Positions 49,462-51,946 of a stretch of 64,000 nucleotides of DNA are shown piece by piece (the stretch's first letter is position 1; every line of letters starts with the position of its first letter). The DNA comes from Planctomycetota bacterium (lineage in GTDB: Bacteria > Planctomycetota > UBA1135 > GCA-002686595), in NCBI GenBank assembly GCA_002862085.1, contig PKCK01000013.1, positions 1-64,000 on the forward strand, given 5' to 3'. The translations under genes were made by a program, and so were the position numbers. The notes below the pieces were generated by a model. The model was not told the DNA's origin. It made no database searches and was given only the letters and a program-made list of their open reading frames with translations.

Positions 49462-49919
49462 GCCGCAGATTGTGCCCGCCGCGCTCTCGGGCGACAAAGG
49501 CAGCGACCGGTGCGCGTGGAGCCGTGGACACCGACGAACGCCTCTCCATCCTCGGGGAGACGGCGCTGCTGATCGAGGGCGTCGAGGACAGGGCCGTCGC
49601 CGATCCGGTGGCGGACGTCGACGGCCGAGCCCGCCGAGGCCGTGGACCGCCCGGGGTTCAGCCTGCACCGCGAGCCTGCCGCTCGCGCCTCCGCTCTCCG
49701 CGACGCAGCCGCTCGCCGAGCTCCGTCCGACCACGGCCGGTGGAACGCGGGAGAGGAGCCTGTTCGTGGACGGGAGGCCCCGCGCGTCCGATCCGGTCGG
49801 CGCCGGCGCCTCCGCCTCCACACGGCACCTGGGCCGGGGATGTCTGGAGTCCGGACTTTCCCACGGCGAGCGGCGACGGCGCGCTACCCTCCGGGCCCGC
49901 CCCCGAGGCCCGAGCCAGC
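49462..49919. other. divergent intergenic region, recQ / mqnB
   Basis: 458 nt. Both strands show short stretches with gene-like third-position GC bias: plus strand about 49524-49635 (VDTDERLSILGETALLIEGV) and minus strand about 49800-49640 (SDARGLPSTNRLLSRVPPAV), but neither is a complete gene. It probably holds promoters for both neighbours and possibly decayed coding sequence. Confidence 0.35.
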
Positions 49920-50582
49920 ATGTTCACGCCGCCCAAGAGCTCTCCCAGGAGCACCGAGACCGTGCTCTGCGTCCCCACGCCCCTCGAGCTCGAGCGGCTA
50001 CGGAGAGTGGCTCCGGCCGTCCTGGAGGAAGGCCGGTGGCGCACCGTCTCCGTCCTCGGGTTCGGGCCGGTCGCCGCTGCTGCGCGCGGCGCGCAGCTCA
50101 TGGCGACCCACCCTGGAGCCCCGTTCCTCCTCGTCGGGATCGCTGGCCGCTACGAAGGCGGCCCCGCGCCTGGCGAGGCCGCTCGATTCGGGCGTGTGGC
50201 ACTGGACGGAGTCGGGGCCGACGAAGGGCCCGCTCACCTCCTGCCAGGTGACATGGGCCTTCCCCAATGGCACGGCGACGCCTCGGCCTCTCGGGTCGAA
50301 CAGACTCTCGCTCTCGGAGGCCCGGAGGGGGCGCCCACGCTCCTGACGGTCTGCGCGGCCTCCGGGGACCCGGCGGCCGCCGCTCTGCGCACAGCTCGTC
50401 ACGGAGCCGCGGCAGAGGACATGGAGGGCTTCGGCCTGGCGTTCGCGGGACATCTGGCAGGCTCCTCGGTCGAGATCGTGCGCGGGATCTCGAACGAGGC
50501 CGGTGACCGCGACGTCGCTCGCTGGCGCATCGACGACGCCCTCGCGGCGGCAGCCGCGCTCGCGGCCGAGCTCACGAGCTGA
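49920..50582 (+). CDS. mqnB: futalosine hydrolase MqnB
   Basis: 220 residues of the nucleoside phosphorylase/hydrolase fold: VLGFGPVAAAARGAQLM, PFLLVGIAGRYEGGPAPGE, GVGADEG and AEDMEGFGLAFA with the purine-nucleosidase acidic motif, then VRGISNEAGDRD. It hydrolyses futalosine (or aminodeoxyfutalosine) in the MqnA-D menaquinone route. Its position just before the mqnD fusion supports the assignment. The ATG at 49920 directly precedes the conserved fold. Confidence 0.9.
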   Translation: MFTPPKSSPRSTETVLCVPTPLELERLRRVAPAVLEEGRWRTVSVLGFGPVAAAARGAQLMATHPGAPFLLVGIAGRYEGGPAPGEAARFGRVALDGVGADEGPAHLLPGDMGLPQWHGDASASRVEQTLALGGPEGAPTLLTVCAASGDPAAAALRTARHGAAAEDMEGFGLAFAGHLAGSSVEIVRGISNEAGDRDVARWRIDDALAAAAALAAELTS

Positions 50583-50673: not shown

Positions 50674-51873
50674 ATGCCGACCCGCATCCATCTCGGGCTC
50701 TCGACCTGCCCCAACGACACCTACCTGGCTCACGCGCTCCTGACGGGCGCGGTGGAGACGCCAGGGCTCGAGCTCGACATCGAGTTCATGGACGTCCAGC
50801 GGCTCAACGAACGCCTCGCGCAGGGGGACTTCGACGTCGCGAAGGCGAGCTACCACCTGGCCCTGCGCCACGCCGGCGAGCTCCTCGCGATGCCCACGGG
50901 CTCTGCGCTCGGCTTCGGGAACGGACCGCTGCTCCTGGCCCGCAGCGAGCTCACGGGGACGCTGCCCGGCCCCGCGTCGCGCGTGCTCTGCCCGGGCGAG
51001 GACACGACGGCGACCCTGCTCTACCGACTCTTCCACGCCCGCGGAGCGGCTCCCGAGCAGCGAGTCTTCTCTGAGATCATGCCCGCCCTCGAGGCGGGCG
51101 AAGCCGACTTCGGGGTGTGCATCCACGAGGGCCGCTTCACCTACGAGGAGAGCGGACTCGTCTGCGTCGAGGATCTCGGCGCCTCCTGGGAGGCGGCGAC
51201 GAGCTGCCCGCTCCCGCTCGGGGGCCTCTTCGCGCGGCGGAGCCTCGACGAGGCCGTCATGGACGCCGTCCAGGACGCGCTCTCCCGCTCCATCCGCTAC
51301 GCCGACGACCACCGCGAGGAGACCCTCACGACCATGCGCGCCCACGCACAGGAGCTCGACGACTCCGTCATCTGGTCCCACGTCGAGCTGTACGTCAACG
51401 GCTGGACGCGCCGCCTCGGGCCCGAGGGCCGCCGCGCGATCGCACAGCTCGCCGAGCGCGCCGCCGGCGCCGGCATCCTCGCGCCCGGCCACGCCCTCGA
51501 GATCTTCGAGCCCTTCGCCCGGCGCAGACTGTTCCACGCGGTGCCCGCAGGCGCCGCTGGGGTCCTCGAGGCGCTCGGAGAGGTGCGTCCAACCTCGCTC
51601 GACGAGGAGGGCTTCGTCCACCTCTCCCAGGCTCAGCAGCTCGAGGGAACCCTCGAGGTTCACTTCCGGGGCGTCGACCGGGTCTTGCTGCTGGAGCTCG
51701 ACCCCGAGAAGGTCGCCGCGGACGTCCGCTTCGAGCCCTCCCGCGGGGGCGCTCTTTTCCCGCATCTCTTCCGACCCATCGACCTCGCGAAGGACGTGAT
51801 CGGCCGCACGACCCTCTGCAGGGGCCGCGCGGGGCGCTTCGAGCTACCCGAGGGCATCACGCCGCGCCGCTGA
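50674..51873 (+). CDS. mqnD: MqnD (1,4-dihydroxy-6-naphthoate synthase) fused to DUF952
   Basis: 399 residues. Residues 1 to about 285 are MqnD: LGLSTCPNDTYLAHALLTG, then DVAKASYHL, GVCIHEGRFTYEE and the periplasmic-binding-like fold. The C-terminal 110 residues form a DUF952 domain: RRLFHAVPAGAAGVLEALGE, SLDEEGFVHLSQAQQLEG, VLLLELDPEKVAADVRFE and FPHLFRPIDLAKDVI. DUF952 is usually a separate protein of unknown function. The fusion is continuous in one frame without a stop. Confidence 0.9.
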   Translation: MPTRIHLGLSTCPNDTYLAHALLTGAVETPGLELDIEFMDVQRLNERLAQGDFDVAKASYHLALRHAGELLAMPTGSALGFGNGPLLLARSELTGTLPGPASRVLCPGEDTTATLLYRLFHARGAAPEQRVFSEIMPALEAGEADFGVCIHEGRFTYEESGLVCVEDLGASWEAATSCPLPLGGLFARRSLDEAVMDAVQDALSRSIRYADDHREETLTTMRAHAQELDDSVIWSHVELYVNGWTRRLGPEGRRAIAQLAERAAGAGILAPGHALEIFEPFARRRLFHAVPAGAAGVLEALGEVRPTSLDEEGFVHLSQAQQLEGTLEVHFRGVDRVLLLELDPEKVAADVRFEPSRGGALFPHLFRPIDLAKDVIGRTTLCRGRAGRFELPEGITPRR

Positions 51874-51907: not shown

Positions 51908-51946
51908 CGCGAGGGGCGCCCGACCGAAGGTCGGGCGCCCCTCGCG
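51908..51946. terminator. perfect 18-bp terminator hairpin after mqnD
   Basis: The left arm (51908-51925) and right arm (51929-51946) pair over 18 bases around a 3-nt GAA loop, 35 nt after the mqnD fusion stop and before the convergent Hc1-like gene. It may end both units. Confidence 0.8.

Follow-up and report, generated by a model that had tools for sequence, protein, structure and literature searches.

The stretch of Planctomycetota DNA analysed here, 64,000 nucleotides long and referred to as the window, contains a single gene that encodes MqnD and a DUF952 domain in one protein. The gene lies directly downstream of mqnB and is followed by an inverted repeat.

49470..50582, plus strand: mqnB (futalosine hydrolase), directly upstream of mqnD-DUF952; TIGR03664, synteny, homology from near 50028
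50674..51873, plus strand: fused gene mqnD-DUF952, 399 aa; single open frame, Pfam, AlphaFold2 whole-chain model
50674..51519, plus strand: MqnD part (1,4-dihydroxy-6-naphthoate synthase), residues 1-282; PF02621, match to 2czl
51526..51870, plus strand: DUF952 part with a predicted ART-like fold, residues 285-399; PF06108, conservation, model, structure matches
51908..51946, plus strand: perfect 18-bp inverted repeat with a 3-nt loop, 35 nt past the stop of the fused gene; read from the sequence

The original prediction, that MqnD and a full DUF952 domain share one uninterrupted frame, was borne out by translation of the window, which gives 399 codons without a stop at 50674-51873 on the plus strand, and by a Pfam search that found both domains far above their cut-offs; the sizes it had given, about 285 and 110 residues, were right. 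PF02621 (VitK2_biosynth) covers residues 5-264 (E 3.4e-63, 213.9 bits against a cut-off of 26), and PF06108 places residues 299-372 in the DUF952 family (80.3 bits against a cut-off of 23.7). The best MqnD match in a sequence search of the PDB was TTHA1568 (2czl, E 1.1e-61), while chorismate dehydratase (MqnA) reached only 0.003, so this half is nearer MqnD than MqnA. The model of the MqnD part matches 2czl with a TM of 0.94 over the target, an rmsd of 1.9 and 43% identity over the match. The CPNDT and IHE...RFTY motifs are retained, and His151 in the CIHE motif aligns to the IIHE of TTHA1568, which, unlike the window's protein, has no C-terminal domain. Judged by sequence and modelled structure, the MqnD half is an intact, true MqnD with predicted enzyme activity. 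GC content is equal on either side of the mqnD/DUF952 junction (0.72 and 0.72). The AlphaFold2 model of the whole fused chain has a mean pLDDT of 95.5 and a pTM of 0.90, the latter suggesting a defined packing of the two domains.

The futalosine pathway is represented elsewhere in the host genome, a 4.4-Mb assembly of 132 contigs that is congeneric with Planctomycetes bacterium Poly30 (CP036434). Besides the mqnB of the window (TIGR03664, E 2.8e-30, under the equivalog cut-off), mqnC and a tandem mqnE-like copy lie on contig 19, and a further PF02621 gene, presumably mqnA, lies on contig 42. The order recQ - mqnB - mqnD(-DUF952) - EVE - floA is kept widely in the family, many relatives having the same order without DUF952. 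In Poly30 (G006) and G005, mqnB has been relocated and the fusion retained; in Poly30 and a sister genome the place of mqnB before mqnD is occupied by a long repeat protein encoded on the other strand (L194:2400-4997, minus strand; L211:459-2975, minus strand). A role for DUF952 as a replacement for MqnB is ruled out by the presence of mqnB beside the fusion or elsewhere in the genome in the cases checked. The inverted repeat behind the fused gene is GC-rich, with a GAA loop and no T tail, and for want of that tail it is absent from the terminator-scan list; it is likely to mark the end of the transcript.

The conserved residues of the DUF952 half are His288, His316, Ser318, Gln322, Glu354, Pro363 and His364. 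His316, Gln322, Glu354, Pro363 and His364 (numbered as in the window's protein) are invariant across 47 DUF952 domains; in a larger set of 74 the glutamine is missing in two unlinked copies. Most DUF952s also retain His288 of the first strand, but the fused genes of a single genus, g60, have arginine there. The dN/dS ratios of six close fused pairs (Nei-Gojobori) are 0.22-0.38 for the DUF952 half and 0.12-0.20 for the MqnD half, and values so far below 1 indicate purifying selection on both halves, weaker on the DUF952 tail. We know of no activity for any DUF952 protein.

The PDB sequence search matched this half to the DUF952 protein CC0527 (2o0p/2o0q) at about 5e-12. CC0527 (PDB 2o0q, 2jqn, PF06108) also heads the structure matches of the AlphaFold2 model of the DUF952 domain alone (pLDDT 95.2), resembling it over the whole fold (Z 16.8) and in the conserved GF-H-S, Q, E and FPH, although CC0527 is a stand-alone protein. 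Next comes the C-terminal ART lobe of the tRNA 2'-phosphotransferase Tpt1/KptA (8tg3, 8tfz; Z 9.6 and 8.5), followed by ART toxins and DarT; with Tpt1, ART toxins and DarT at Z of about 7-9.6, the model falls within the ART fold. DUF952 is thus predicted to adopt a compact ART-like fold whose closest counterpart in any characterised family is the ART lobe of Tpt1/KptA, and it has the two histidines of the clade in place. An hhalign comparison with Tpt1 sequences of the same class paired LFH...GFVHLS with LYHGT...HVHLS, placing two histidines in equivalent strands; the score was weak, and because of its low formal probability the pairing is supportive only. An identity of DUF952 with Tpt1/KptA itself is ruled out, since PF01885 (PTS_2-RNA) had no match in the fused protein at E 0.01 and since DUF952, unlike Tpt1/KptA, has no N-terminal lobe, only the ART lobe being matched by structure. 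His316, Glu354 and His364 would be compatible with NAD(+) binding or ADP-ribose transfer. Most KptA/Tpt1-like proteins of the family (L228-L241) are without the HGT motif of the ART lobe, having for example YVGVGSRDA, and may be degenerate. The function of DUF952 had been called unknown at the outset; this stands for its role, while its fold class is known, Pfam assigning the family to the ART clan (PMC7955679).

A survey of homologues covered 81 genomes of the window's family, with DUF952 in 44 and mqnD in 73. DUF952 is fused to mqnD in one open frame in 22 of the 44 and forms a gene of its own immediately behind mqnD in 11, so that it is linked to mqnD in 33; it lies elsewhere in 10, in one of which (G068) no mqnD was found, and at a contig end in the last (G081). 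The fusion occurs in all eight same-genus genomes with mqnD (the window's own counted) and in 14 others within the family, a distribution that argues against both chance and a slip of assembly. The link spans many genera, whose MqnDs are only 50-60% identical to that of the window. It is nonetheless not universal, as 21 of the 52 MqnDs sampled, including 19 from the family, are without a linked DUF952, in a gene order otherwise the same where examined. Of 392 genomes sampled across the phylum, 43 had DUF952, and outside the window's family none of these showed mqnD in the ~1.5 to 5 kb inspected; the 80 best loci of a scan of genome contigs included no fusion from another phylum. We found no open-access paper describing MqnD-DUF952, in itself weak evidence of novelty, nor one linking DUF952 with menaquinone; the sequence of the Poly30 example has long been public.

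The separate pairs suggest how the two states are related. The junction was readable in 10 of the 11, and in all 10 the start of DUF952 overlaps the stop of mqnD, by a 4-nt RTGA (ATGA or GTGA) in eight and by GTGGCTGA in two. Overlaps of this sort are typical of translational coupling. Because the separate DUF952 is in a different frame from mqnD, fusion requires an indel and not the mere loss of a stop. The fused state is clustered, not scattered, on the MqnD tree; it requires seven changes, at least two of them forced by well-supported branches, and shuffles never gave so low a number. Several fusion or fission events appear to have taken place in the family, and change counts on this tree alone do not separate the one from the other. 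On the DUF952 tree all mqnD-linked copies form one clade (support 100/96), which also holds five of the six DUF952s of family f47 and one of family f15, whereas the 10 DUF952s of the window's family that have no mqnD link fall outside it. No mqnD link was found for the f47 members of this clade, mqnD being elsewhere in those genomes; they directly follow a NUDIX-like gene (L166:4743-5794, L167:5269-6854, L169:5431-6434, L170:4289-5622), with Pfam NUDIX values of 6e-4 to 4e-3, below the cut-off, and so pair an ART fold with a NUDIX-like protein.

Elsewhere, DUF952 is found in frame with unrelated enzymes or domains, as follows.

L141:1387-2748, minus strand: DUF952 with RibF in one frame, other Planctomycetota
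L152:97-1824, plus strand: DUF952 with LOG/TIGR00730 in one frame, other Planctomycetota
L162:1-1197, plus strand: DUF952 with RNase III in one frame, other Planctomycetota
L163:1447-2580, minus strand: DUF952 with an alpha/beta hydrolase in one frame, other Planctomycetota
L164:337-1785, minus strand: DUF952 with peptidase M19 in one frame, other Planctomycetota
L196:5016-5867, plus strand: DUF952 with Cupin_5 in one frame, an unlinked DUF952 of the window's family

The Cupin_5 frames number six (L129, L133, L196, L199, L200, L202), all of them unlinked DUF952s of the window's own family. Unlike in MqnD-DUF952, the partners in these fusions are not menaquinone enzymes, and with M19 and Cupin_5 the DUF952 domain is on the N-terminal side. 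DUF952 also starts no more than about 40 nt behind the end of other genes, or overlaps that end; these genes encode a Na/H-exchanger-TrkA transporter, an AMP-binding enzyme, DctM, MMPL, phosphomannomutase, LOG, HI0933, SIR2 and HlyIII. In G018, which is related to the window's family, DUF952 directly follows the SIR2 gene (L198:3008-4266), whose product is NAD-dependent. DUF952 and pyrD, the gene for quinone-dependent dihydroorotate dehydrogenase, overlap by 4 nt in Paracoccus and Sinorhizobium (L247:3872-5301, L248:3908-5340), and in Sphingomonas DUF952 overlaps gyrA. DUF952 is a promiscuous fusion module in Planctomycetota, with MqnD as one partner among several, and attachment to so many unrelated proteins means that the MqnD fusion alone is no proof of a role in vitamin K2 synthesis. 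Of the menaquinone-linked role in the original prediction, the tie to mqnD within the family stands (33 of 44 genomes, overlaps at 10 of 10 junctions, several events), whereas a menaquinone-specific role does not, given the many unrelated partners in the phylum and the neighbouring pyrD in Alphaproteobacteria. The suggestion that it acts at the downstream naphthoate step found no support; an ART-like fold is not one to be expected for the prenylation and decarboxylation that come after MqnD.

Our preferred reading, in which we place about even confidence, is that the gene encodes a real two-domain protein whose DUF952 part is a promiscuous accessory or passenger module with a general activity of its own. 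Judging from the modelled fold alone, that activity would most likely be NAD(+)- or nucleotide-ribose-linked chemistry. DUF952 also exists in the lineage as a separate gene, apparently coupled to mqnD in translation through the overlap of stop and start, and a switch between the two states needs a frame-changing indel. As the tail of a constitutively needed enzyme DUF952 would be expressed 1:1 with MqnD, whose chemistry need not depend on it. Against this reading stand the retention of the fusion in the two species where mqnB has moved away, the packing of the whole-chain model (pTM 0.90) and the arginine that g60 has for the first histidine; the mqnD link, kept across many genera, might also have lasted longer than that of a random passenger.

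In a different explanation, DUF952 is a dedicated partner of MqnD whose pocket binds the carboxyphenyl-ribose of the substrate or the released sugar fragment, and which feeds, protects or clears the active site. The tight coupling, repeated fusion and purifying selection are in its favour, as are the survival of the link after mqnB relocation and the confident packing in the model. There is also a chemical analogy that may be relevant, in that the ART pocket of relatives holds a pyridine-carboxamide joined to ribose, and ART sites accept 3-substituted benzamides. However, the MqnDs without a linked DUF952, the same-clade f47 copies that adjoin a NUDIX-like gene and the partners elsewhere that are not menaquinone enzymes all count against it, and we consider it doubtful. 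An effect of DUF952 on MqnD itself, on the substrate or on the product is to the same degree questionable; it is at least equally probable that DUF952 has a general activity linked to NAD or nucleotide-ribose and simply accompanies MqnD.

Less probable still is pure hitchhiking, in which DUF952 recombined behind a well-expressed gene and the fusion is a nearly neutral by-product of the overlap, functionless for both halves. DUF952 behaves in the same way behind many unrelated genes, and overlapping junctions ease in-frame fusion, but dN/dS well below 1 indicates that the domain is maintained by selection, and the fused state is clustered on the tree. We give a lower rank, as an improbable one, to the idea of DUF952 as a movable regulator or modifier with an ART fold. 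It would be attached time and again to host enzymes, among them MqnD, RibF, RNase III and LOG, and would tune or modify them in response to NAD(+) or a nucleotide-ribose signal. No PADLOC or PHROGs match links the DUF952 domain to defence or phage. Finally, the prospect raised at the outset, of separate genes joined here by an assembly or sequencing error, is right as to the separate genes, which exist in 11 genomes, but the error itself has a negligible probability and is ruled out by 22 fused genomes, two of which are single-contig (G006, Poly30, and G102).

The wide pattern of partners is a caution that the function of DUF952 is not to be read from any single neighbour. DUF952 is widespread and without known function, and its conserved, selected fusion to the well-understood MqnD, along with the other fusions, offers defined proteins in which DUF952 activity could be measured beside that of the partner. 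If the ART-fold regulator idea were true, menaquinone synthesis would be tied to the NAD pool through MqnD-DUF952. On the best reading MqnD-DUF952 is a real, selected, lineage-specific bifunctional protein, with a specific tie to MqnD possible, and within one family MqnD has acquired a promiscuous module of ART fold as a stable partner kept by selection.
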